Below are positions 4,548-38,799 of a stretch of DNA of 39,911 nt, one piece after another. A model generated the notes under the pieces. The model did no database searches, was not told the DNA's origin, and saw only the letters and a program-made list of their open reading frames with translations. Source of the stretch: a virus. The stretch spans positions 1-39,911 of IMG/VR virus record IMGVR_UViG_3300013230_000001; one strand, 5' to 3'. How positions within the stretch are numbered: the stretch's first letter is position 1; every line of letters begins with the position of its first letter. The position numbers were made by a program, and so were the translations under genes.

Positions 4548-4596
4548 TCGATTACTTTGTAATTATAGAGCATGGGAGCGCCTTGTGGACGCTCCC
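4548..4596 (-). promoter_or_regulatory. Repeated hairpin/-10/operator-like element, copy 2
   Basis: Minus strand: 7-bp GC hairpin GGGAGCG/CGCTCCC (4574-4596, loop of nine), six bases, then TATAATTACAAAGTAATCGA (4548-4567), all 20 bases identical to copy 1. The ATG of the 83-residue gene follows 24 bases from the -10. No U-tract follows the hairpin, so it is not a canonical terminator. Confidence 0.6.
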
Positions 4597-4608
4597 TGTG
4601 CCACTACC

Positions 4609-5073
4609 TCACCTGGCATACAGGTAACCACCAGCCCAGTCAGCGTGCTCCAGCAACCATTCACGCTCTTTAATCACCAGCAGGTTGAAACGTACACCTT
4701 TGGCAGGTGCTTTGAATGATGCTGGTTTGTACAACTCACCAGTCTTCTTATCAACAAATGCATGGACACTGCGCTGTCCAGTCTCATACTCCATCACAAT
4801 TTTGTGATACTTACGTCCACCTTCTGCAATGTAAAACTTATACTCAGGCGCAGCATGTCCACCGACAGTGCCACGATTGCGCGACTTGAAGTTGTCTGCG
4901 AGAGCATCACACAACATCAGCGTATATTTGCGGACGTTGAGTTGAATGTCATTGCGTGCCTGTTGAGTGGCAGCGAAGTCAGCGAAGTCCATGTCCTTTG
5001 TTGTTGTTACAGCAATCATAGCAGGGTTGTCGCCCTGTTGGGCAGCGAGGTGGACAGTCTGTGAATTGGTCAA
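4609..5073 (-). CDS. Hypothetical conserved phage-like protein
   Basis: A 154-residue protein of unknown function. The C-terminal two thirds form a compact, probably alpha/beta domain: a helix with LMLCDALADNF, strands YKFYIAEGG and RKYHKIVMEYE, then VHAFVDKKTGELYKPA and VRFNLL. No catalytic motif is clear. The TTG at 5073 overlaps the upstream stop as TTGA and gives the long form; an ATG at 5019 (MIAVTTT) would remove 18 residues. The same TTGA junction is supported by homology at 15384, so TTG is credible. Confidence 0.65.
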   Translation of the reverse strand: MTNSQTVHLAAQQGDNPAMIAVTTTKDMDFADFAATQQARNDIQLNVRKYTLMLCDALADNFKSRNRGTVGGHAAPEYKFYIAEGGRKYHKIVMEYETGQRSVHAFVDKKTGELYKPASFKAPAKGVRFNLLVIKEREWLLEHADWAGGYLYAR

Positions 5074-5416: not shown

Positions 5417-5656
5417 TCAGCACATCAGGGGAGAATAGTCATCCCCAGTATAAGCATGGACATGAAAATCAGTCACTTCAGCACCATTGGCAATGTAATT
5501 GTTCACATCATACATCACCTCAGACTTGACAATGGTGGAGAATGTGGTCGTGTTGGTGGCAGCACCAGGATGCCAGATAACACGCTTGACAAAACGCTTT
5601 GCAGAGGGAGTGCAAGGATAGTAGTCAATCTGCGTGGCAGGGGTGACGAGTTGCAT
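5417..5656 (-). CDS. Hypothetical protein
   Basis: A 79-residue protein with many Thr, Val and Tyr, probably a small beta fold (QIDYYPC, RVIWHPG, TDFHVHAYTGDD). No recognised family. It lies between the methyltransferase gene and a small acidic gene and has its own promoter element (copy 3) 24 bases before the ATG. Confidence 0.65.
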   Translation of the reverse strand: MQLVTPATQIDYYPCTPSAKRFVKRVIWHPGAATNTTTFSTIVKSEVMYDVNNYIANGAEVTDFHVHAYTGDDYSPLMC

Positions 5657-5665
5657 TGGTGTCTC

Positions 5666-5714
5666 TCGATTACCTTGTAATTATAGGGCATCAGGAGGCG
5701 CTGGAAACCGCCTC
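5666..5714 (-). promoter_or_regulatory. Repeated hairpin/-10/operator-like element, copy 3
   Basis: Minus strand: 6-bp hairpin GAGGCG/CGCCTC (5695-5714), then TATAATTACAAGGTAATCGA (5666-5685), 19 of 20 bases identical to copies 1 and 2. The hairpin lies in the last codons of the methyltransferase gene. Spacing from -10 to ATG (24) equals copy 2, and the AGAGACAC downstream is shared with copy 1. Confidence 0.6.
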
Positions 5715-6569
5715 TGTGCCACTTTCCTCGCTGTCCTCTAGGAAGGACGTGAGACGTGCTCCTAGGGTCTTGAGACGCGACTGGCATAGTTGATAGTATT
5801 CGTCATCAATCTCGAAACCAATGTAATTACGTCCCTGGTCAATCGCCATTGCAGCAGTAGTGCCACTGCCCATAAAAGGGTCAATAACAACATCGCCAGG
5901 ATTGCTCCAGGAGATGATATGGTCCCGCGCAAGTGCCTCTGGCATTGTTGCAGGATGCTTGTATGCTTCTTTGGAAGATTGACCGAAACCACCGCTATTG
6001 ATGACTCGCCAGATGTTAGTGCGAGCACCAAACTCTCGCGTTGCTTTACTCTTCTTGCCAGCATCTTCTAACTCTCCACTCTTCTTTCGTGCCTTAGCAT
6101 TGCCCCATGAGGAGATACCTGCCCACTTATTCTTCTTGTCCATGATGATATTGACAGTCTTGGGTTTGCCCTTGGACAGAATAAAACAATACTCAAATGC
6201 TTGTGAGTATCGCACACTATGTGGACCAGCAGCAAATGCAATACCAGACTTTTCGTAAATCATAGTATCGTGCAGACGCAATCCACACTCCTCCATGAAA
6301 TATAGTGCCTGACGGAAACTACTACCAGACTCACCACCTTTGATGGTTGCGTCACCAACATTCCACATGATTACACCACCTGGCTTGAGCACACGGGTGA
6401 GTGATTTAGCAACACGTTTGAATACTTCGTGGTCCCACTTGCTGCTGTCGTTGTATGTCCGCAGGTCATCATATGGTGGTGATGTTACACACAGGTCAAC
6501 AGATTCTGCATCCATAGAGTCCATACCATCGATACAGTTTTGATTGTAGACAGTGTTTAATTCAAGCAT
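5691..6569 (-). CDS. DNA methyltransferase, beta class (N4-cytosine or N6-adenine)
   Basis: From ATG 6569 a 292-residue enzyme. Catalytic motif IV TSPPY (29-33) precedes the AdoMet-binding motif I DPFMGSGTT (230-238), the order that defines the beta class. LKPGGVIMWNVGD (61-73) and KHPATMPEALARD (204-216) are family landmarks. SPPY is commoner in N4-cytosine enzymes, DPPY in N6-adenine ones, so N4-cytosine is favoured but unproven. The central lysine-rich part (about 140-200) is probably the target-recognition insert. Its ATG overlaps the stop of the candidate nuclease gene by 8 bases with an AGAAGA ribosome-binding site; the longer ORF to 6641 lies within that gene and was rejected. Confidence 0.92.
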   Translation of the reverse strand: MLELNTVYNQNCIDGMDSMDAESVDLCVTSPPYDDLRTYNDSSKWDHEVFKRVAKSLTRVLKPGGVIMWNVGDATIKGGESGSSFRQALYFMEECGLRLHDTMIYEKSGIAFAAGPHSVRYSQAFEYCFILSKGKPKTVNIIMDKKNKWAGISSWGNAKARKKSGELEDAGKKSKATREFGARTNIWRVINSGGFGQSSKEAYKHPATMPEALARDHIISWSNPGDVVIDPFMGSGTTAAMAIDQGRNYIGFEIDDEYYQLCQSRLKTLGARLTSFLEDSEESGTEAVSSAS

Positions 6570-7278
6570 TGATTTCTTCTTTGATGTAGTAAATCCAGAG
6601 GTCTTTGAGGTCGATGCTACCAGAATAGCACACAATATCATTTTTGTCTTTAACTTGTGCTTTCAGACTAGAGTAACTGCTGTCCTGGCGAATCTTGTTG
6701 CCGTTAGAATCAAGAAGAAACTGCTTAGTCTTCTTGTCTCGTTTGTATCGGACAGGGTTGTAATTCTTCCACTTGTCACTGCTATTCTTCATGCGAAACT
6801 GTTGCCAATGACTGAGACGATTGCCATTCAATTTGAATCGCATGACGATAGTATCATCCACCTTCACACTACTGCTGAGATTACCTAGACAAGCAATAGC
6901 ACCATCATCACCACCAGAAGTCTTCAATTCAATAGGAGTTTCAGTTGGCAAGTGCATATAATCCTTGCCACTACCTGCACCAGCACCAATAATATCTTGG
7001 AGATTGTAGTGCTCAATCAGGTCATCTAGGGCATCGTTAATATCATATTGCAGACGCTTTGTGACTGCCTGTGTTTGCTGCTTGGGGTCAGTTTCAATGC
7101 GTCGTAGATAAGATTCGTAGGTTTCTCGTCCTTCACGCAGACGCTTACGAGACTGCACGAAAGTATCAATGGTCTCCTGAATAAAACCAGGGAGTTTATC
7201 ATTGATGAATTGCCAAGTGACATCGAAGTCACTGAAGTCGTATGTGACAGTATCAATGACGCGGATGTAGTTAGACAT
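6562..7278 (-). CDS. Candidate PD-(D/E)XK endonuclease
   Basis: A 238-residue protein. After a helical N-terminal half with RKRLREGRETYESYLRR, residues 101-119 read AGSGKDYMHL then PTETPIELKT: D106 ten residues before E117-L-K119 matches the D-x(n)-(D/E)-x-K core of type II restriction enzymes. A lysine-rich beta section follows (WKNYNPVRYKRDKKTKQF). It directly precedes and overlaps a DNA methyltransferase gene, the usual arrangement of a type II restriction-modification pair, and has its own terminator-promoter element upstream. Activity and site are not visible; a different nuclease role is possible. Confidence 0.6.
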   Translation of the reverse strand: MSNYIRVIDTVTYDFSDFDVTWQFINDKLPGFIQETIDTFVQSRKRLREGRETYESYLRRIETDPKQQTQAVTKRLQYDINDALDDLIEHYNLQDIIGAGAGSGKDYMHLPTETPIELKTSGGDDGAIACLGNLSSSVKVDDTIVMRFKLNGNRLSHWQQFRMKNSSDKWKNYNPVRYKRDKKTKQFLLDSNGNKIRQDSSYSSLKAQVKDKNDIVCYSGSIDLKDLWIYYIKEEINA

Positions 7279-7300: not shown

Positions 7301-7329
7301 ATTATAGTACAAAAAAAGAGGGGCGTCAA
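7301..7329 (-). promoter_or_regulatory. Sigma70-type promoter with -35 in a terminator loop
   Basis: Minus strand: TTGACG (7324-7329), 17 bases, then the consensus TATAAT (7301-7306), 23 bases before the candidate nuclease ATG. The -35 is the loop of the terminator at 7311-7335. This resembles the early-promoter/stem-loop cassettes reported in T4-type phages. Confidence 0.75.
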
Positions 7330-7335
7330 CCCCTC
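7311..7335 (-). terminator. Intrinsic terminator overlapping a stop codon
   Basis: Minus strand: GAGGGG/CCCCTC stem (7318-7323 with 7330-7335), loop TTGACG, then TTTTTTT. The first stem arm contains part of the stop codon of the 87-residue coiled-coil gene, leaving no spare sequence. Confidence 0.85.
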
Positions 7336-7597: not shown

Positions 7598-7757
7598 TTT
7601 CAACCATCTCTTGGATTGCTTTTGCCATTATACGTTGTAATTCTTGCTCTGTCAACCCATTCGCCCATGCCCACTGTGGGTCATCTTTATCCCAAGATAT
7701 TTCTAGTCCACCGTCTTCAGTTTCCGTTACTTTGAATGAATCAGTTTGGTCTTTCAT
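7590..7757 (-). CDS. Small conserved-looking hypothetical protein
   Basis: A 55-residue ORF. N-terminal strands (SFKVTETEDGG, LEISWDKDDP) run into WAWANGLTEQEL and an amphipathic helix ending MVENE. The Trp-rich WDKDDPQWAWANG segment and absence of low complexity suggest a real protein. It overlaps its upstream oxygenase gene by 17 bases and the downstream coiled-coil gene by 8. Not recognised. Confidence 0.65.
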   Translation of the reverse strand: MKDQTDSFKVTETEDGGLEISWDKDDPQWAWANGLTEQELQRIMAKAIQEMVENE

Positions 7758-8397
7758 GAGGTTTGAAGTAATTGTTAATTAGGAATTGTGACATACAATA
7801 TCTGCCATTACTAGACATAGCACCAAAGTCATCAACAATAGGTTGAAACTTCATCATAACAGGTTTTACTTGATGCACAACACTAGACAGGAAATATAGT
7901 GTCATATTGTTTTTTATTTCCACAGTATAATCATATTCTGGGAAATACATATCACCACCATCAAATTGCTTTGGTTGCTTATAAAACCACGTCAGTGCAG
8001 TATATGATGACATGTCTCTATGTGCTTTGTAGTGGTCTCCCTCTTCATAATATGAAATGAGAGTGCTATCTGAATTGCAAGTTTCTAAGAGTTTAAATGA
8101 GAAATCTGTTTCAATAAGAGAATCCCACACTAAATCACCTAATGCTTTTCTATTGATTTGCAAGATAGATGATATTTCTCTTCTACTATACAAATCATCT
8201 AAATGCACACCAAGATTTTGTTTTAAATTCTCATTTGTATCCATATTCCACGCAGTGCCAGTTGCTCGCGGTCCTTGCAACTTAGTGGTATAAGTGAGGA
8301 AATCTAACTCTCTCCAAATATGGAATAATTCTTCCTCAGTATACATATCCTCAACAATTACATGAGGAAATGGTAATTTATTCTGGATTATTTTCAT
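7741..8397 (-). CDS. 2OG-Fe(II) oxygenase
   Basis: A 218-residue dioxygenase-like protein. H126-x-D128 (KAHRDMS) and distal H175 (SSVVHQVKPV) form the facial triad, with R199 in NGRYCMSQF at the place of the 2-oxoglutarate-binding Arg. FDGGDMYFPEYD between them matches the GG-D strand of prolyl-hydroxylase-like members. AT-rich and distinct in sequence from the other oxygenases in the window. Protein side-chain hydroxylation is usual for the wider family; the target here is unknown. Confidence 0.8.
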   Translation of the reverse strand: MKIIQNKLPFPHVIVEDMYTEEELFHIWRELDFLTYTTKLQGPRATGTAWNMDTNENLKQNLGVHLDDLYSRREISSILQINRKALGDLVWDSLIETDFSFKLLETCNSDSTLISYYEEGDHYKAHRDMSSYTALTWFYKQPKQFDGGDMYFPEYDYTVEIKNNMTLYFLSSVVHQVKPVMMKFQPIVDDFGAMSSNGRYCMSQFLINNYFKPHERPN

Positions 8398-8578
8398 TGT
8401 TTAGTCTGTCTAATTCCTCACGATTACGCATAGTATAGTTAGTCAATGCGTCAAGTTGTGATTGAAGACGATTTTCAATCTCATATAGTGCATTAGTTGT
8501 GCCAGTATTTTCTCTCTCAAGAATGGCAACTCTTTGCTCTAGAAATTCAATTTGTGCTTGCAATTCAGATTTTTTCAT
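8378..8578 (-). CDS. Small coiled-coil protein
   Basis: A 66-residue protein with a continuous heptad pattern (LQAQIEFLEQRVAILEREN), predicted to be a parallel coiled coil over most of its length, ending NNENNPE. Overlaps the downstream oxygenase start by 20 bases and the upstream stop as ATGA. Function unknown. Confidence 0.6.
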   Translation of the reverse strand: MKKSELQAQIEFLEQRVAILERENTGTTNALYEIENRLQSQLDALTNYTMRNREELDRLNNENNPE

Positions 8579-8730
8579 GCTGCCATGGACCTCACAAGAT
8601 ATTCAGTATATTTTTCCATTTTGTCTGGATGGACAGATGCTGGATGCAGATTGATTGCCTCACGAAGTGCTTTCATCTCTTCCTTTTCTTCTTTAGAAAG
8701 TGGTTGATTTGAGGATTTCTTGGAGGACAT
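8575..8730 (-). CDS. Small helical hypothetical protein
   Basis: A 51-residue ORF (MSSKKSSNQPLSKEEKEE at the start, YLVRSMAA at the end) with a Ser/Lys-rich N-terminus and a helix around KALREAINLHP. Coupled by ATGA to the coiled-coil gene. The 77-base gap upstream contains only a weak -10-like TATAGAT and no clear terminator. Confidence 0.6.
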   Translation of the reverse strand: MSSKKSSNQPLSKEEKEEMKALREAINLHPASVHPDKMEKYTEYLVRSMAA

Positions 8731-8807
8731 AGAAACTTGGTCTGGACTGTATCTATATTATCAGGAAATCCTGAAAAACTGGGTTTTCTTAATTATTGTT
8801 TTATATT

Positions 8808-10481
8808 CTATTCCCTCGATTCCCAGAATCTAGATAATAGCACATTTTTCTCGGGAAACCAAATGTGGTCTAGACAAGAATTATCAAGAGTGTTGACAGC
8901 ATCTCTTGGTGTCTCAACTAGAGGTTGACCAGCAAGATTGAAACTAGTATTTAATAGAATACCAATGTCATTTTCTGCCTTCACCATACACACTAGGTCA
9001 TACAATATAGAATCCTCATTGATAGTTTGGACTCTGCATGTGCCATCAACATGCACTACACCACTGAGCATGTCTCTGTATTCTTCCCTTACTCGGAAAG
9101 AATTTGTCATGTATTTATTACCTGACAACCCAATCATATCAAAGTATTTGTGTGCATCTTCTTCAAGACAGACAGCAGCGAATGGTCTATACCACTCACG
9201 TTTTTTGATTTGATTTACAATGTCTTTCGCATCTTTATTTGTAGCATCAAATAAGATTGAGCGATGACCTAATGCGCGTGGACCAGACTCAGACAATCCA
9301 TAGTATACACCAACAGATTGTTGCTTCAATATAATATCAGCAACATCTTCTACTGTTACAGTAGGACCAACAACACCATCCAAACTATGATGCACACCAT
9401 GATAGAAAGTATCACTCAGACCATAGTTGTTACTATCGTGTGTTAGTGTCTTGTATGTATACATTGCAGCACCAATGCTGTTTCCACTATCATCTGCTAG
9501 TGGCTCAAAGTAAAAGTCAACGCCTGGTATATTCTCAATATAATATGAGTTGGATACAATATTGAGACCATAACCACCAGTGACAACTACATTTCTAATA
9601 CCAGTTTGGTCAACATATTTTTGTATTAGTTTACATGCTTCTCTCTGTGTCTGTTTCTGCACAGTGTATGCATAATCAGCATACAATCCATAGTTATCAG
9701 GTGTTACCTCTGGTGTAGTATATTCATCCAAATCTAGATTAACTACACTGGCAACCTCTTCTGAAAAGTCTTTATTGATATGGGAGAAGTAAGTATCAAC
9801 AGGTATATTATTATCTAGAAATAGACTTGGATGATTTGTATCATGTCCATAAGATGATAGACCCATTGTCTTACCATTTTCTAACGCATCTTGAGAGATG
9901 AGTGTAGTAGCAGACTCATATACTTTGGTGATGTTATAACAACTACGACAAGTGTAGTTTGCGTGTGGATTAGATTGTTTTAGTCTATCGATAGACTCTT
10001 TAATATCATTACTACGGTCTTGTCCTATATTAAATGCCCAGAGATTTTGATGTATGATACCAAGAGTATATGGATGCTTGGTTGCTACAAACACTGTCTC
10101 TGATTCACGCATTAAATCATCAACAATGCTGCCATTTCTATCAATGACAAACACTAATGCTTTATCATAATTACTATTTTCAAAAGCAAGTGATGCATGT
10201 TGTAGATGATGTCTATCACCCATGAATCTAATTGGACAACGAAATAGTTTGCTGGCAAGCAGCACCATGCTCTCCATCCATCCTAGTTGTGGTGATGCAA
10301 TGACACATGTGTCAACTTTTTTATCACCTAGAAGTTTTGATACTTCTATCAAGGACAGATAAGGATAGTTGTCACGTTTGTGTTTAGTAAATCTTTCTTC
10401 CTTGAAGAAGTATTCAAGTTGTCCATCATTAATAACACAAACTGACGAATCATGCGCTGGACTGATACCAACAACTCTCAT
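8808..10481 (-). CDS. Carbamoyltransferase, NodU/CmcH/TobZ family
   Basis: From ATG 10481 a 557-residue enzyme, the usual length for the family, which transfers carbamoyl from carbamoyl phosphate via carbamoyl-adenylate to hydroxyls of sugars or small molecules. N-terminal Kae1-like domain: GISPAHDSS, then the metal-site histidines in RHHLQHASLAF (about 90-100), VVTGGYGLNIVSNS and DDSGNSIGAAM. C-terminal YrdC-like domain: SGPRALGHRSILFD (about 399), REWYRPFAAVCLEE and LLNTSFNLAGQPLVETPRDA. The family DG-x-G is replaced by IDRNGS near 115. Start: ATG 3 bases after the upstream stop; the TTG two codons before is rejected. Role may be glycan or DNA-base decoration; unproven. Confidence 0.92.
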   Translation of the reverse strand: MRVVGISPAHDSSVCVINDGQLEYFFKEERFTKHKRDNYPYLSLIEVSKLLGDKKVDTCVIASPQLGWMESMVLLASKLFRCPIRFMGDRHHLQHASLAFENSNYDKALVFVIDRNGSIVDDLMRESETVFVATKHPYTLGIIHQNLWAFNIGQDRSNDIKESIDRLKQSNPHANYTCRSCYNITKVYESATTLISQDALENGKTMGLSSYGHDTNHPSLFLDNNIPVDTYFSHINKDFSEEVASVVNLDLDEYTTPEVTPDNYGLYADYAYTVQKQTQREACKLIQKYVDQTGIRNVVVTGGYGLNIVSNSYYIENIPGVDFYFEPLADDSGNSIGAAMYTYKTLTHDSNNYGLSDTFYHGVHHSLDGVVGPTVTVEDVADIILKQQSVGVYYGLSESGPRALGHRSILFDATNKDAKDIVNQIKKREWYRPFAAVCLEEDAHKYFDMIGLSGNKYMTNSFRVREEYRDMLSGVVHVDGTCRVQTINEDSILYDLVCMVKAENDIGILLNTSFNLAGQPLVETPRDAVNTLDNSCLDHIWFPEKNVLLSRFWESRE

Positions 10482-10483
10482 AA

Positions 10484-10714
10484 TCAATCCCTTGGTTTGT
10501 GGTTTTTCATGCCATCATGATTTCCATCACCTGGCAGTTTACCATATGCTAGGTATTCTACTGCTTGTAGTGACCCTTCCAATCGTCTAAGGTCATCTTC
10601 AATCTTAACATATTCAGAGTATGCATTATACAACTCTTCCGCTCTAGCAGTTAATTGTGCAGTCCGTTTGGTGAATCGCTCAATCAACTGCTCATAGTTT
10701 TCTGTAGGTTTCAT
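10484..10714 (-). CDS. Small coiled-coil protein
   Basis: A 76-residue protein with long charged helices (LIERFTKRTAQLTARAEEL, then YVKIEDDLRRLEGSLQAVEYL) and a disordered basic tail. Coupled by ATGA to the upstream gene and 2 bases from the carbamoyltransferase ATG. Function unknown. Confidence 0.6.
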   Translation of the reverse strand: MKPTENYEQLIERFTKRTAQLTARAEELYNAYSEYVKIEDDLRRLEGSLQAVEYLAYGKLPGDGNHDGMKNHKPRD

Positions 10715-12311: not shown

Positions 12312-12929
12312 CTATACCTCTACAGTTGATGGATATTTGTCGCCCAATGTTATCTTTCCACGCATGAATGTATTAAATGCGATTACCTTTCTAGACTCAG
12401 TAGCAGACTGATTAGTAGCAACGTAATGCTCCATCCATGATGGAAATATAATCATCTCCCCTGTCTTTACTGGTATGTATACAGATTGTGTATTGTATTT
12501 GTTTGATTGACATTGATACTCAAACTGAAAGTTTGGAAACTGAAAGTGACCTGTCTCTATCACTATGCCAGAATACTCTTCACTCTGCTCTGGCACCTGC
12601 AAATACAATACACCACTCAACATACTATTAGGGTGTCTATGTCTATCTTGGTGATTACCTGGCACTGTTTCTCGATACCACGACTCAGTAATATCGAGCG
12701 TAGGATTATCTACATATCCACAAATATGCTTTTCATAATGTCTAAGATTTTGGACAACCTCCCAACGCAAATCAGCAAAGATGTCTTTATCAAGAAGACG
12801 CATCTCTTCACTCAACACAACATCTGAGATAGTAAGTTTATCTAGATATTCAAATTGCTCATCTGTTGTCTGATGAGCAATAGTATTTTTGTAAATTACT
12901 GTAGGATTTACTTCAATAATATCTGGCAT
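12312..12929 (-). CDS. 2OG-Fe(II) oxygenase-like protein (TIGR02466-like)
   Basis: A 205-residue protein from ATG 12929; a GTG one codon upstream is less likely. ESWYRETVPGNHQDRHRHPNSMLSGVLYL (about 82-110) resembles the N-x(n)-H-x-H-P...LSGV-YL signature of the TIGR02466 group of putative 2OG-Fe(II) oxygenases; EMIIFPSWMEHYV gives the distal His (H168) and ESRKVIAFNTF the Arg (R180). The group is known mostly from cyanophages and marine bacteria and has no assigned substrate. Four bases separate it from the downstream MGMFDY-type gene. Confidence 0.8.
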   Translation of the reverse strand: MPDIIEVNPTVIYKNTIAHQTTDEQFEYLDKLTISDVVLSEEMRLLDKDIFADLRWEVVQNLRHYEKHICGYVDNPTLDITESWYRETVPGNHQDRHRHPNSMLSGVLYLQVPEQSEEYSGIVIETGHFQFPNFQFEYQCQSNKYNTQSVYIPVKTGEMIIFPSWMEHYVATNQSATESRKVIAFNTFMRGKITLGDKYPSTVEV

Positions 12930-12938
12930 CACTCTCTT

Positions 12939-25344: not shown

Positions 25345-28300
25345 TTAAATCTCCATTAACCACCAACCTTGGAATGCATCGGGAATACCGTTGCCATCTA
25401 AATCTTGGTCACCGACATAAATTAGACCGAAAGCAGCGTTTGGAGTGTTGACAACCAACTCACCGCCAGGATAGTTAGAAACACCACCCAAGTTGCTACC
25501 CGTATCAGACCCTTGGACCTTAACACTAGATGGTGCTCTAACAACTAAGTTGTTAGCAAAGTTAAGAGCACCGCCACAATCTACAATTCTAATTGTGTCA
25601 CCAGTGATTGCATTGCTAGGCAATCTCAATACAAGTGTAGATGAAGGAATAACGAGATACTGCAAGTTAGGCTCTAGTGCAACAGCAGATGCATCTGTGT
25701 TACCCTGTGTGCTGACAAAGATTGTCTTTCTACCACCGTTTGCATTGTAGAAGTTTTCATGACCGAATGCCTCAATAGAAGCATTTTGTCTAAAGGTGAA
25801 TGGTTTAGCACCATTAACACCCAAGTTATTAATTTGGACAACCTCAGTAGCATCAGAAGGTGATGCAGAAGATACACCGTTAACTTCTAGATATCTACCA
25901 ACATATGTGTCACCAGTTTGTGCATCAACTGTAAATCTAGAGGTGTGAGCATTAGTGCCACTTTCAGCATTCGCAGGATTAGCAAGTGTGCCAACCGCAA
26001 GGTCATTACCAGTCCTTAATGTGCCAGCAATCTTAGTGTTACCAGATGCACCCAACACCTCAAGTGCGATATTGGTTGCGCTGTTAGTCCTGCCCTTATC
26101 AAATGACCCAGTTGCAAAGAAGGAATCTTTGAAAATCTTGAGGTCAGCGCCATTGTATAGACTTGTATCACCAGAAGCAGACTCAACATAGAATTTAGGT
26201 AGAGTGCCATTGGTAATAACAAAGTATTGCTTGGAAGGAGTAGAAGTAGAAGTATTACCACTCAACTCAATGGAGTTGTGGACTGTTAAATTACCACCGC
26301 CACTCGTTTCAATAGTTGCATCAGTTGCTTCACTGCTATTCTTACCATAAGCATCAGCAAGATTCTGGTCGTTTTCAGCATTGATGAATGGTTTCGTAAT
26401 ATCGTAACCAATTACAACATCACCACTGATTTGTGTATTACCAGTTGTAGAGATAGTCTTAAAGACTTCAAGTGGGTCCTTAGGCAAGACAGTGCTACCA
26501 AAGTCACCATTATTAATAGTGAAGGACTGAGCATCAGCAGGGTTAATTACCGTGACTTTTGCATATTCACCACCAGTATCTAAATCTGTCTTATTGAGAC
26601 GGAATAGGTCACCTGCTTTAATAGCAGCAGAGAATTCTGCAACGTTAATTGTGGTGCCATTAGCGGTGATTGGGTTGGGGAAGATATAAGAAGCATTTTG
26701 CTGCTCAATCAATCTTACAATCTTCTGACCATCTGCTTGTGCAGATTGACCAGTGCCTCTTTGCCCTCTAACAACCTCAACAGTATAAGGGACAGGAGAA
26801 TCTGGGACATAAGTTGTTGGGAAGTTGACGGTGCTGACAATCTCAGTGCCAACCAAATACAACTCATTAATACCAATACCAGATGGATTGCTGATTGGTA
26901 GCAAGTATGTCTGGACACCATTTAGAATCTGATTCTTGTATGAATCATCACCCCATGGTTGACCACCAACTGTATCAACAGTTGTCTCTGCGATAATCAT
27001 TCTGGCAGTGCCAGCATCAGTGCTACCTTGCTGTAGAGCAACAGTAATAGTATTATCATTAACGTCCTTGAGGACGAAACCAAGTGCATCTCTGCTCTCA
27101 ATGTAGTAAGTGCTAGTTGTATTAACACCAGTTAGATTACCAGTATCAATAAACTGGACGCCCTCATTAGTATTGAAGAAGTGTCCATCAGTATCAACAA
27201 TAATCTTATTAGCAGTTACTGTAGTGACGTTAACCACACCACTAAAGTCATCAACAACACTGAAGAAGTCAATGTTTAGATTTGCAAGTGAACCTGTTGA
27301 CTGATTTAGACCAACGCCAGTAATAACAGTACCTGTAGCAGCTGCAGGACCGAAGTCACTGCCAGTGCTGCTATAACTAAATGTAGTAGCGTCTAAAACC
27401 GTTACAGTTACTGCATTTACCGTATTGAAAGAATCAACGCTAGAATCAATCTCTGCGGTATCACCAGTTGTTAGACCATGTGCGGCAGTGGTAATAACTG
27501 TTGCAACGTTGTTGAGTCTTCTGATGGTAGCAATACGAATCGTGCCGAAGACGTTTCTATCAATACCAAGATTAGTATTCTTGAGTCCACCATTTTGAGT
27601 CATATCTGACTCGAAGAATGCAGATCCTTGGACTCTAATACCATTTCTGATTTGAGTCTCACCAGCAACACCACCAAGTGTCAATTCACCAACTGATAGA
27701 CCAATATTCAACTTAGTAATACCAGATGGGAATAATGTAAACTCATCATCCGAAGATGTGGTATTAATTTCTCCACCATTAATGGTAAGAGTGCCATCAA
27801 CAATAGTCTGGTAATTCTTAACGTTAAAGATACTTGCCTGCTTATTAGCAAATGCACCACCAAGAGTAATTCTGGAAATGTTTCCAGCGCCAGTATTTTC
27901 GACTGTGCCTACATTAACTGTAGAATTAATCGCATCTGTATGGATGTTAAGTGTGCTGGTGCCTGTTACTGCGGTGCCAATGTCGATTGTTTGGTCTGCA
28001 GTTGCTAGGTCAGCAATCGCTACGTTTACAGCGTAACCAGTGAGATTGAGTGATGTGGTGGTAGACTGATTAGCAATATTGAATGTTGCTGCGGTAGAGC
28101 GAATATCACCACCATCAACATCAATGTCAGTCTCAAAAGTGAAGTCGCCAGTGATTCTTGCATCACCAGAAACGACAAGGTTTTTATCTAGTGCAGCATC
28201 AGTTACGTTAATACCAACTCTACCATTATCGATGTCAGCAGTTGCACCCTCGGCGCGACCATCTTGTGACAGTGTTGTAGTTGCAACTCTGAATTCAGCA

Positions 28301-31300
28301 GTAGCATCTGGGTTATCGCTAGCTCCACCAACGATAAATGCATGTCTGCTTGCTACTGGGGTGCCACCACTACCATCAGATAGTGTAGTTTGCTTTCTAC
28401 CACTGATGAATGTGTTACCAACAACATCGAGGTTTGCTCTTGGATATGTTGCAGTAGAAACAAATCCATCCAAATAATCGGTAGACACTGCTCTAGCAAC
28501 TGTGTTAATACCTAGCTTATAGTCACCATAAACAGCAGTTTCTGTCCTTAATGCTTCACCACCAAGTAAACCTACTTCCTTCCATTGAGATTGTCCTAGA
28601 GAAATCTCGATAGTTGGTTGCGTGATTGTGGAGTTAACTGAGAATAGGTATGGACCATTTCCAGTTAAGACAGTTTCAGATGCTCTTTCAGTAATTAGGA
28701 ATACATAACCATTCGATTCTAGATACTCATATCCTTCAGCAGCATTATTATAAACAGTGTGGACACCGTTAATAGTTGCTAGCGTATCAATAGCACCAGT
28801 AATTCTAATCTGACTATTTAATGTAATACCAAGTGATGCACCTGGATTGCTTTCACTGAAGTTGACCTTACCAACCTGGAAGTATAGTTTGATAACATTC
28901 AGGTTGGGGAAGAATTCAATGCCAGTAATATCAATCGAAGACTCATTACCAGCCGTTGCAGTCAGTGTATATGGGACATAAGAGTTAGCATAAATCCAAC
29001 CAAGAGACCCAGTGCTACCAACTTCACCACCTTTGAATAGGATGTCACCAGATAATGGGACAGCAGACCCGAAGGAGATTGTTTGTGCAGAATTAAATCT
29101 TGCCTTAGTGCCAGTCGTATCTTGGTTAGGTGCCATGTTATCAACACCAGTCCTAACTGTGTATCTTTGAGTGCCTCTGGAGTTGAGGTCAAAGATAGCA
29201 GCTCTGACTCTATTCTTATCGATAATGATGTCACCACCTCTTGTAGTATCGAGTAGTGGGTCATCATCACCTGGAAGGACACCTTGTCTATCACCAGGAC
29301 GTGATACGATTCTGAGTGAAGGAGGAGTCATCTTCGCTTCAAACTCAGGGTCAACGTTGACGATGACAGGTGAGTTGAAGAAGTTAGTTAGATTAGGTGG
29401 AGCATTGAGAGTAATAATATTCTCAAACGTTACGGGGTCCTCAAAGACCGTAACGAGACTACCAAATTCTCCATCTTCGGAATCATCCTCTTCTAGAATT
29501 AGAGCATCTAGGAATTCCTCTTCACCAGTGATAGCGTTAATCTTACGATTACCGATATACAATTCACCGTTGGAGTTGATACCAGTGTAGAAGACGATAC
29601 CAGCATCTTCACGCTTAGACTGTGCATAGTAATCTTGGACATCAGTTAGGATAACTGTCTGTCTGACAGGGAAACCAGTTGAGTAGTTACCAGGACCGAA
29701 ACCAAGATATTCAAACGTGTGGTTACCAGCACGGGCGATAGACGGACGACGCAATTCAACGTAGAGTTTTTGCTCTAGTGGGAATCCAGAGTCACCTGCG
29801 ATAGGAATTAGTCTTTCCTCTGCGCCAGGTGCTGCTGCACCACTCTGTGCCTTAATCTCCGTAGATGGAGAAGCAAAAGTATATTCACCAGACCCAGGAT
29901 TAGAAATAAAGTCTAAGATTGCTTCCTTAGTAGCAGAATTCTTAGCATCGTTAATAGAAACTAAACCATGGACATAGTTATCAGCGGCACAGGATGCTGC
30001 TGGTGGGTCGAGAATTGTTGCATCTTGATTACCACCCTGCTCATCACTACCATCATACTGGAAGAGTAATGGGTCATTCTTATAAGTAAGGGGATAAAGT
30101 CTAGATACAGGTTGACTAAACTTGAAGTTTCTGAAGTTTTGACCAACACCAGACCCAAGAGGTAGAGGTGAAATATCACCACGGACAACAGTTAGATAGT
30201 AGACACCATCTTGCTGACGTGGGATTCTTCTCTGAATCTCTTCAATGCTGTAGATGTAGTATGTTTCAGTTAAATCAGATACATCTTCTACACTAATAAC
30301 TCTATATTGTCTAGCAGCATCGTCAGTGATAACATCACCAGGAGTGATGCAGTAGACATTAGATGCCTCAACACCATAGAGGAAGTTTTCTTTATCTTCT
30401 TTACCGAAGTTAGGTCTGTCTAATACTTCAGCGGTAACATCAGGTTGACCTGCAATAGTCTGTCTGATAAAGGTTTGCTTATTATCAGCAAAATCTAATT
30501 CACCTTGGACACCCTTAAGAATGAGATAGTTAAACTCTTCTAAACCACCCTCAACATTTTCGTTGCCAAACCATGCATGGACAGTTGCACTTCCAGTATA
30601 ATCGCCATACCATGTAACTGTAGACCCTTCAATAAAGTCACCATTGCCACCTTGAGGTTGACCAACCTTGACTGTTACAAATCTCTCTCCTTTGAGTGAT
30701 TCTAAATCTAGACCATGGTCAAAGACTGTCATTTCTAGATAACCATCAACATTAATCCTTGCAGATTGAATGGTGAATGATACATTAGATTCTGTCTTCG
30801 TGCCCTCAATGCGCTTGGCAAAGATAGGATTGTATGGGTCATACTCAGAGAAAGCATTAGAAATACCTAGTCTTTCTCTTGGTGATGGACCTTCTTCAAA
30901 GAATGTAGCATCCTTCTGGACACCAGTTGCAACTGGTTTGAGAAGTAGTTTCTGTGGTAGAAGTTTTCTCTTCTCGTCAGTCCTAATTCTAATTGCGAAA
31001 CCTTCGAGTGGGTCTCTAACATCATCACGATAGTTAGGAATGACATAACGTAGTTTGTATGACTTGTCTTCCTTCTCTCTAGAATCATCTGCTCTGTAGA
31101 AGAATGCATCTGGAGTGCGAGGTGGTTTGTTGACATATAGACTACCTCTCGATGCATCAGTCATCGTGATTCTTTCGTAAATCTCGTTGCCTGATTGTAG
31201 AGATTTGAGATACCAGCACTGCTGTGCGGCATCATAACCTAGAGGACTTCTCTTTCTAGTTGCGAAGACATGGAAATCTCCACCACTTGGGAAGTTAAAC

Positions 31301-34300
31301 TGGACAGCGTTTTGCTTATCAATAGCATTCTGGACAGTAAGATATAGCGAGAATTCGTTATTCTTAGTGTAAGTTGCTGGGCGACCAACATAGTATGGTC
31401 TATCAATCTCCAGTCTATTACCATTTGTCCTAGTTGGCAGAGTATCTAGAGCAGCACCAACTGCTTCACCATTGACTAGATTCTCTTCTAGTGGATAGAA
31501 GAAGACTTGCTGGATTTGGACACCATTGATAGCGGTATCGAAGACGTGATTTGTGGTAGTCTCAAATACTCTGGAGCTAACTAGTGAGCAAGTATAACGA
31601 TGTAGGTCATAATTGACATCAGTTAGATACTGATGAGCCTCAATCTTAATGTCTGGACTGATGCTAGTTGTCTCAGAAGAGTAGATGTAATTACCCGCAG
31701 TAGCATTCTCAATGCTAGTTGCAAGCATAAATGTCTGAGAATCATTAAACTGTGCCGTTGCACCACCAGCAGAGTAGTCTTCTGGTTGAGTGATTTTGCC
31801 AGGAGCAATGACATAATACTTAGTATTAGTGTCAAATCCTTTGGGTAGTCTGATGAGACGCTTATCTACACTATCATTTGCAGCAACTGGGACCAGTCTG
31901 ATTGGTGTGCCAGTTTCCATATTGTGTGGATTGCTACCACCAACACGGAATAGAGTTGCTCTAGTTGCAAAATCAGAAGTATTGACTAGTTGAGAAACTA
32001 GAGGCTCTGCGTCTACACCATTACGGATGATGCTGTCAATGACACGCATCTTCTCGATGATGGCATCTTTAGTGCTTGCACACTTGTTACTACCAGTATC
32101 AACAGTGATGCTATCATCTCTCTGTGGAGTATATCTAACAACATACTCATCACTACCACTGTTTCTAGGAGGTAGGGGACCAGTATTTTCTAGAGCATCG
32201 ATAAGAATATCAAACTCGGTGGAGATTGTATATGCAACATCTGCACAACGTGGGACACCAGCAGTAGATGTATCAATGGTATTGTCTAGTTGATAATCTA
32301 GAGTATTGCTTGGATCTTTAGTGTATAATGGGTCATTATCTGTGCCATCACCAGTCCTCCAATTACGCATTGCGAGGATAGCGAGGTCTCTAACCTTCTT
32401 GTATGCATATACGCTGATGTTTAGCTCACCAACTAGAGACTCAGCACCAGCATTGTAGTTGACTGCTGGAAGTGGAAGAGCAGAGTTATTAAGTTTATCG
32501 ATAAGAATGCCAAAGAGAGTGTCAATAGCATTTCTTACATCTAAACAAGCATTAGGATTGTCATTTGGAATATTTGGACCAGGGACACCTATTTGAGCAG
32601 GACCATCAGAAATATCAAAGTCTCTGACATTGAGTTGATTAGTTACTGCCTTGAAGCATAACTGTCTAGCTTCTTCAAATGCAACGACAGACTGTGCCAA
32701 TTCACCAGCAAGACCGTTATTGATGAGCGTATTGCCAGTGCTATCAAAATAAGATAGAGTCGATTGAATAATATTATAGTTACCACCTAGAGCAAGGTCT
32801 TCTGCGATTGCATCAACAACAATGCCGATGTCACGCTTACACTTCTCTTGGAATGCAGGTGCGCTTCCGTAGTTAATCTCTGGGAGTGCGGGATTAGTTG
32901 CTGTGCCAGTAACCATGTCACCCTGGCGAATTCTACCAAAAATAATCTCAGATAGAGTGTCTAGGGTTGCTTGGACATTTGAGCAAGACTGAGTGTCTTG
33001 ATTATTTGTAGTGACACCAGGCTGACCGAATACACTGATACCAGACCCAGCATTGCCAGGTTGTGGGTCACCAGTGAGAGTCAAGTCCTTAACAAACAAC
33101 TGGTTGGTAATAGCAAGTTTCATTGCTGCTACCGCTGCAGTATATGCAGTGATAGAAGGACCTTCTTCACCTTGTAAACCACCCGTAATCCATGCTACTT
33201 CACTGGTAGATACAGTGACAGTAATATCATCAGCAATGATGACACCACCAATAGAATCACCAGGAATGGTAACCAAGTCTCCATTTGCGTAACCATAACC
33301 ACCTTCTACAATCGTAACACTATCAACAACACCAGCAGAATCTCTGGTTACTTTAAATGTTGCACCAGCACCATTACCAGTAGTAGTGGTATCAATACCA
33401 TTGTAAATTCTATCTGCTCTATTTAAAAGTGTAGTGCCTGCTGTGTTGGTGAAGGTAAGAATCTTTCCATTGACATTATCACCAACAAAATATTGTCTGA
33501 TAAAATCAATAGAGTAAGAATTACCTAAAGTGGTAAGGTCTGTTGAAAGAGCGTCAACAAAATATCCAATGTCACGCTTACACTTGGTTTCACCATTTGT
33601 AATGATGCTGCCAACTGATTCACCAGGCAATGCACTTGTATTACCTGCTGCAATTACAGTAGTTACAATACTAGTTAGAGAATCAATTGTATTTTTAACT
33701 GTAGTGCAAGAGCCAGGACTTGTATTGTCTCCTGTTGCAGGGTCTGGAGTAATAGTTAAATCTTTGACTGTAAGTTGGTTAGTAACCGCTTCCTTCATCA
33801 AATCACGAGCTTTATTAAATGCTGTGATTGTCTCCGCTTCTTCACCAGTCAAAGACCCTGCACCAGGACCATTGAAATACTCTTGTGTGAAGAATCTTGT
33901 ATATCTATTACCACCTTGGAATACATCCAATGCAATAGAATCAATGAAAATACCGATATCTCTGATGCAAGATGCAGCATCAGGATTCACAAAACCAGGG
34001 TGCTGAATGGCAATTTCATCATATGCACCTTGGACAATTTCTGTCTTATTTTGTCTAATTAAACGATAACCATCCGCAAATCTAGACCCACCATCAGTTT
34101 GATTGTCATCAGGGAAATAGAAGTCTGGGTGCTCAACTGCAACTTCTGCCGTAGCAAAGTCTTGAATGTGCTGTTTGTTTTGTTGGATTAGACGATATGC
34201 ATCCTTATAACGTGAATATACGTTAGTTTGTGCATCTCCACCATTAGTGAAATCATTTCCACCATAGTAGAAGTCAGGGAATTCGATAGCAAGTTTTGCT

Positions 34301-38289: not shown

Positions 38290-38472
38290 TTATCTGACGA
38301 TTACTTTGTCAGATTCGAGCATTTTCTTACATTGCTCGACTAACTCTATCAATTCGTTGATTGTAGAGCATTTGAAGGTAATTACGGAAGAATCCTCTCC
38401 TCTCACGATTACCTTCTTATTATACAGGTCTACTGTAATAATGTCAAGCAGTTTGGCGGTTTTATCAAGCAT
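38290..38472 (-). CDS. Small hypothetical protein
   Basis: A 60-residue protein with strand-strand-helix layout: IITVDLYNKKVIVRG, SVITFKCSTINELIELVEQCKKML. Unrecognised. Its stop abuts tRNA-Leu, and it overlaps the upstream gene's end by 8 bases. Confidence 0.65.
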   Translation of the reverse strand: MLDKTAKLLDIITVDLYNKKVIVRGEDSSVITFKCSTINELIELVEQCKKMLESDKVIVR

Positions 38473-38770: not shown

Positions 38771-38799
38771 ATTATAGCGGCGACAAGGGGTCTTGTCAA
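38771..38799 (-). promoter_or_regulatory. Sigma70-type early promoter, distal of tandem pair
   Basis: Minus strand: TTGACA (38794-38799), 17 bases, TATAAT (38771-38776): a full consensus promoter. The A/T tract AAAAAAGTTTTTATAC immediately upstream of the -35 resembles an UP element. Such a promoter would compete strongly for unmodified host polymerase right after infection. Confidence 0.92.

Follow-up and report, generated by a model that had tools for sequence, protein, structure and literature searches.

Chloroviruses and marseilleviruses are already known to encode type II restriction-modification (R-M) systems, and a review of jumbo phages (PMC7824862) mentions phage-borne R-M systems; a system of this kind is thus not new in itself. 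The restriction enzymes that chloroviruses package are thought to start the degradation of host DNA within minutes (PMC7019647), and the marseillevirus system, which is transcribed nuclease first, has been proposed to exclude other viruses (PMC7253447). In the open-access literature searched, we found no paper describing R-M in T4-like cyanophages, and the paper on phage S-MS29 lists the methyltransferase (MTase) without a partner.

The window analyzed here, the whole of a 39,911-nucleotide stretch of viral DNA (IMG/VR record IMGVR_UViG_3300013230_000001), is that of a T4-like cyanophage, as its closest matches at the DNA level are myoviruses of Synechococcus and Prochlorococcus. Two overlapping genes of this phage probably constitute a two-gene, type II-like R-M system, which would mark the phage DNA and cut the unmarked DNA of the host or of rivals.

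Organization of the locus and the methyltransferase

Both genes lie at the positions given in the preliminary description, and both are on the minus strand. The first, at 6562..7278, encodes a 238-amino-acid candidate PD-(D/E)XK restriction endonuclease, classified as type B and recognized from its open reading frame (ORF), an AlphaFold2 (AF2) model, structural matches and IMG/VR relatives; the second, at 5691..6569, encodes a beta-class DNA MTase of 292 amino acids. The stop of the nuclease gene and the start of the MTase gene have exactly 8 nt in common (ATGCTTGA, 6562..6569, minus strand), the overlap that had been reported before. The start of the MTase is most plausibly at 6569 (MLELNTVYNQ...), and a further ATG in the same frame lies upstream at 6641, within the nuclease gene. 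The same 8-nt overlap is present in Syn9, S-MS29, S-H35 and many IMG/VR loci, and the overlaps across the family (mostly 8-20 nt) suggest that translation of the nuclease and the MTase is coupled.

The single promoter claimed for the pair is represented by a sigma-70-like sequence, TTGACG-17-TATAAT (7301..7329, minus strand), which precedes the nuclease gene and matches the consensus at 11 of 12 positions. Its -35 box is overlapped by a terminator-like hairpin of the preceding gene (7318..7335, minus strand), and five relatives (L001, L004, L071, L031 and L084) likewise have such a promoter ahead of the nuclease, its -35 box within the terminator hairpin of the upstream gene. The form TTGACR-17-TATAAT occurs four times in the window, as against 0.03 expected from shuffled sequences. 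Three more promoters, all perfect TTGACA-17-TATAAT, are found on the minus strand at 7627-7655, 38419-38447 and 38771-38799. Another promoter-like leader, CCCTATAATTACAA(G/A)GTAATCGAGAGACAC, is repeated (5656-5690 in the window; about 4590-4624 and 5111-5148 in L004) and lies in front of consecutive small genes that follow the MTase. Elsewhere, the window encodes a 2OG-Fe(II) oxygenase (7741-8397) and a NodU/Nol-like carbamoyltransferase (8808-10487), both within 7741-10487, two further 2OG-Fe(II) oxygenases (115-669 and 12312-12932), and a single ORF of 3,948 amino acids (25345-37191) adjoining tail-fibre genes.

The MTase (METHYLTRANSFERASE; 5691..6569, minus strand) matches the Pfam family N6_N4_Mtase (PF01555) with an E-value of 4.1e-43. 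Motif IV, TSPPY (amino acids 29-33; 6471..6485, minus strand), precedes motif I, DPFMGSGTT (amino acids 230-238; 5856..5882, minus strand), which is the beta-class order that had been noticed earlier, and assignment of the protein to the beta-class N4/N6 MTases is certain. N4-cytosine is favored as the target base because of the TSPPY motif and because the closest proteins of solved structure (8s9m/8s9n, 3e-18) methylate cytosine N4 in DNA. The closest named relatives, which are 67-69% identical, belong to Synechococcus and Prochlorococcus myoviruses. Comparison of the window with its relative L004 gives dN/dS ratios of 0.17 for the nuclease and 0.08 for the MTase, within a range of 0.06-0.17 over both genes; both are under purifying selection, and therefore neither is a chance ORF.

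The 238-residue protein and its relatives

No significant sequence match to the 238-residue protein was detected in Pfam, NCBIfam, PHROGs, PADLOC or the PDB, nor to the profiles of known type II endonuclease families in Pfam, NCBIfam and PADLOC. That no characterized restriction enzyme in the libraries searched is matched at the sequence level counts against the R-M interpretation. The preliminary description had likened the protein to PD-(D/E)XK nucleases by its D-x10-ELK core, and had proposed structure prediction as one check, with a model lacking this fold as one outcome that would overturn the idea. The AF2 model, calculated from an alignment of 32 sequences, has a pLDDT of 90.4 and a pTM of 0.85 and shows the PD-(D/E)XK restriction-endonuclease fold; an earlier, poorer model (pLDDT 69) gave structural matches that agree with the later one. 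In comparisons with VIA-align, the top match is NaeI (Z 9.7 over 152 residues, rmsd 3.5), followed by ThaI, EcoRV, BglI, DpnI, SfiI, HincII, BcnI, MvaI and PvuII, and restriction endonucleases account for nearly all of the best 50 matches. Foldseek ranks PvuII, DpnI, Eco15I and NhoI at the top with weak E-values (0.035 and up), which counts against the R-M interpretation. Rep15 (8a4c) is also among the structural matches (Z 5.5), and the nuclease at L084:1016-1729 matches the Pfam family Rab15_effector below the threshold (4.8e-6; 26.5 bits, with a cut-off of 27); this vertebrate Rab effector possibly shares ancestry with the nuclease fold, or the matches are due to chance.

The putative catalytic core, D106-x10-E117-L-K119 (6922..6963, minus strand), is present in the protein as had been described. 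Alignment of 32 relatives of types A, B and C reveals ten invariant columns, among them D106, E117, K119, G132, N133 and K139, and the D, E and K of the core are retained even in relatives with approximately 20% identity, as the D...(D/E)xK signature of the superfamily demands. Because of the predicted fold and the conserved triad, we conclude that the protein is a PD-(D/E)XK nuclease of restriction-enzyme type, with a predicted cleavage activity.

In cultured cyanophages that encode the same MTase, the corresponding gene is annotated as a "hypothetical protein" of approximately 200 amino acids (gp61 of Syn9 and others). A tblastn search with the window nuclease found no match in named phages, and direct comparison of the profiles of the window type and the gp61 type is weak (hhalign probability 3%). 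The homology of the two types is settled by bridging sequences, namely L071, which matches the window protein in a pairwise BLASTP comparison (1e-6), and then L084, L087 and L112, which are intermediates detected by the profiles of both types. By these comparisons of sequence, the gp61-type proteins are remote homologues of the window nuclease, which belongs, with Syn9 gp61, to an unannotated superfamily of nucleases in T4-like cyanophages. Scans of cellular genome contigs yielded no convincing cellular homologue of the nuclease, and a search of plasmids was negative. The only two cellular matches, L159 in a Nonlabens xiamenensis assembly and L160 in the Euryarchaeota MAG TMED129, were treated as phage sequence because each carries the whole cassette among cyanophage-like genes; the presence of these contigs in assemblies of unrelated organisms is probably due to contamination or mis-binning.

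Linkage of the two genes and turnover of the nuclease

Among phage records, the same 17, several of which are near-copies of one phage, carry both a close MTase (60-80% identical) and a gp61-type nuclease. Proteins of the gp61 type are encoded at 56 loci in IMG/VR, most of which have the MTase directly downstream with an overlap of 8, 14, 17 or 20 nt; type C genes stop some 30-60 nt before the MTase and do not overlap it. When the best 80 of 397 MTase loci in IMG/VR were surveyed up to 0.7 kb upstream of the MTase, type A was found at 40, type B, that of the window, at 13, type C at 12 and an unrelated-looking nuclease, D, at 5. A member of the superfamily (A, B or C) is therefore present at 65 of the 80 loci, and with nuclease D a nuclease candidate of any kind is present at 70. 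As for the remaining ten, a superfamily nuclease lies elsewhere on the contig in at least four, a second MTase is next door in two (L139 and L151), and the remainder are fragments. In L139 and L151, this second DNA methyltransferase (ORFs of 540 and 289 amino acids, respectively) occupies the position upstream of the MTase in place of a nuclease.

A DNA MTase and a candidate endonuclease thus lie side by side, as in type II R-M systems, in an association that is reinforced by the overlap and recurs widely, which supports the pairing suggested in the preliminary description. Its further statement that complete R-M pairs are uncommon on lytic T4-like phages does not hold for the present group, as many T4-like cyanophages have this arrangement with the nuclease annotated as hypothetical. 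Nor is the nuclease-first order, which had been regarded as risky and in need of regulation, in itself a sign that a regulator is lacking, because the order is conserved across the family. Some contigs (L054, of 49.9 kb, and L072) carry the nuclease but no MTase within the fragment, which counts against the R-M interpretation. In L001-L003, a 135-amino-acid ORF (TTDYDLVVDVNGQLYKVQVKSS...; 4555-4962, plus strand), not found at that place in the window, directly follows the MTase and resembles an additional small nuclease of the PD-(D/E)XK type.

The MTase loci are not all independent, and removal of near-copies left 61 distinct MTases, including that of the window. On the tree of these MTases, the nuclease label changes 11 times, the minimum being 4, and the smallest strongly supported group around the window, of five members, already contains types A, B and C. 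The putative target-recognition region of the MTase was located by its position rather than by structure. In this central region, the MTases of L083-L087, which are near that of the window and have exchanged A, B and C nucleases, are 91-97% identical to the window MTase, whereas those beside nuclease D are only 48-49% identical; more distant MTases (68-75%) are not separable by nuclease type. Such a pattern would be expected if nucleases of types A, B and C were all bound to cleave the site protected by the MTase, and those of type D a different one. The loci with a divergent central region are L153-L157, in which a different nuclease-like protein (SGGDM..YEIKTGQGNDIQGATHSPKE) lies upstream of the MTase in place of the A/B/C family; a remote homologue of this protein is found in Synechococcus phage DSL-LC02. 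The dS between the window and L004 is 0.61 for the nuclease and 0.11 for the MTase, which points to recombination inside the cassette. The very different evolutionary rates of nuclease and MTase count against the R-M interpretation.

Proposed role and comparison with known systems

In the R-M model, a single promoter of the host sigma-70 type, probably active early, would drive both genes, and ribosomes would translate the nuclease and then, by coupling through the 8-nt overlap, the MTase. The MTase would methylate a specific site in the phage DNA, probably at N4-cytosine as its motifs indicate, and the nuclease, judging from its pairing, fold and active site, would cut the same site if unmethylated. 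By analogy with chloroviruses and marseilleviruses, the DNA destroyed may be the host chromosome, providing nucleotides and shutting off the host, or that of a co-infecting phage, or both, while the phage's own genome would be spared; incoming phage DNA may carry protective methylation from the previous round. A broader generalization is offered only tentatively: an R-M cassette of offensive function may be widespread in marine T4-like cyanophages, its conserved MTase of fixed site being repeatedly re-armed with divergent or replaced endonucleases of one uncharacterized superfamily, directed against the host chromosome and rival phages.

The two genes could instead have separate roles, the MTase protecting phage DNA against restriction by the host, in the manner of orphan phage enzymes, and the nuclease acting in replication, recombination, packaging or general breakdown of host DNA without matching of sites. 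In other phages, related MTases often occur with no nuclease of this sort (284 phage records have a match to the MTase and 17 have a gp61-type gene), one subclade has the nuclease approximately 8 kb from the MTase, and the type of nuclease turns over next to a constant MTase, all of which would fit this explanation. We nevertheless consider it unlikely, because the predicted fold is that of restriction enzymes and not of resolvases or RecB-type nucleases, co-inheritance and overlap are kept in diverse cyanophages, and a nuclease without sequence specificity would damage the phage genome too.

The presence of NhoI, Eco15I and DpnI among the structural matches raises the question of whether the upstream gene encodes a modification-dependent (type IIM/IV-like) nuclease, which would cut DNA modified by rival phages or by a host MTase and to which the neighboring MTase would be no counter; the 49.9-kb fragment that has the nuclease without the MTase could be read in the same way. 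The linkage and overlap with one particular MTase are strong, the best Z-scores belong to ordinary type II enzymes (NaeI, ThaI and EcoRV), and the separate nuclease D goes with a separate MTase recognition region, so this explanation appears quite improbable. A further alternative, in which the nuclease is inactive and the cassette a relic in decay, is very improbable indeed: a few copies are broken, such as the nuclease frame of L072, but the triad and motifs are intact in the window and its relatives, the dN/dS values cited above are low, and the promoter and overlap are conserved.

If the R-M model is correct, lytic cyanophages gain a means of eliminating DNA that lacks the modification from the cell they infect, and a likely function is provided for a gene that is still "hypothetical" in Syn9 and other well-studied phages. 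A cultured system would then allow a long-standing question to be tested, namely what lytic phages retain DNA methyltransferases for and whether they employ restriction offensively. The endonucleases would form a new, very diverse family whose members may share one target site, useful for studies of restriction-enzyme evolution and possibly as reagents. Within the searchable literature, what is new is that a group of T4-like cyanophages has such a cassette, that the partner endonuclease comes from an unannotated superfamily, and that this endonuclease has been repeatedly replaced or has strongly diverged beside a near-constant MTase.

The type II systems of chloroviruses (PMC7019647) resemble this cassette in being virus-encoded with adjacent MTase and endonuclease genes, and degradation of host DNA with sparing of viral DNA has been proposed for them as it is here. 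They differ in that chloroviruses infect eukaryotic algae and package their restriction enzymes in the virion, and their activities and sites are proven, whereas the cyanophage cassette is known from sequence and predicted structure. In the GATC system of marseilleviruses (PMC7253447), neighboring nuclease and MTase genes are likewise kept together in a viral clade with the nuclease first, but the MTase is an N6-adenine enzyme whose methylation is proven, the nuclease is similar to CviAI, and the DNA of the eukaryotic host is not degraded. The window nuclease has a predicted fold and a D...ExK active site in common with the type II PD-(D/E)XK enzymes NaeI, EcoRV, PvuII and ThaI; it differs from them in being encoded by a lytic phage and in lacking a sequence-level match to them. 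Orphan phage MTases, for example those of lactococcal 936-type phages (PMC4190342), are phage-encoded and can protect phage DNA, as the window MTase may, but the latter is overlapped by a candidate endonuclease gene that is conserved with it. The closest counterpart is the gp61/gp62 pair of Syn9 (NC_008296) and its homologues, which is the same cassette, with an MTase that is 69% identical, the same 8-nt overlap and a remotely homologous nuclease; Syn9 gp61, annotated as a hypothetical protein, differs in being of type A, about 20% identical to the type B nuclease of the window.
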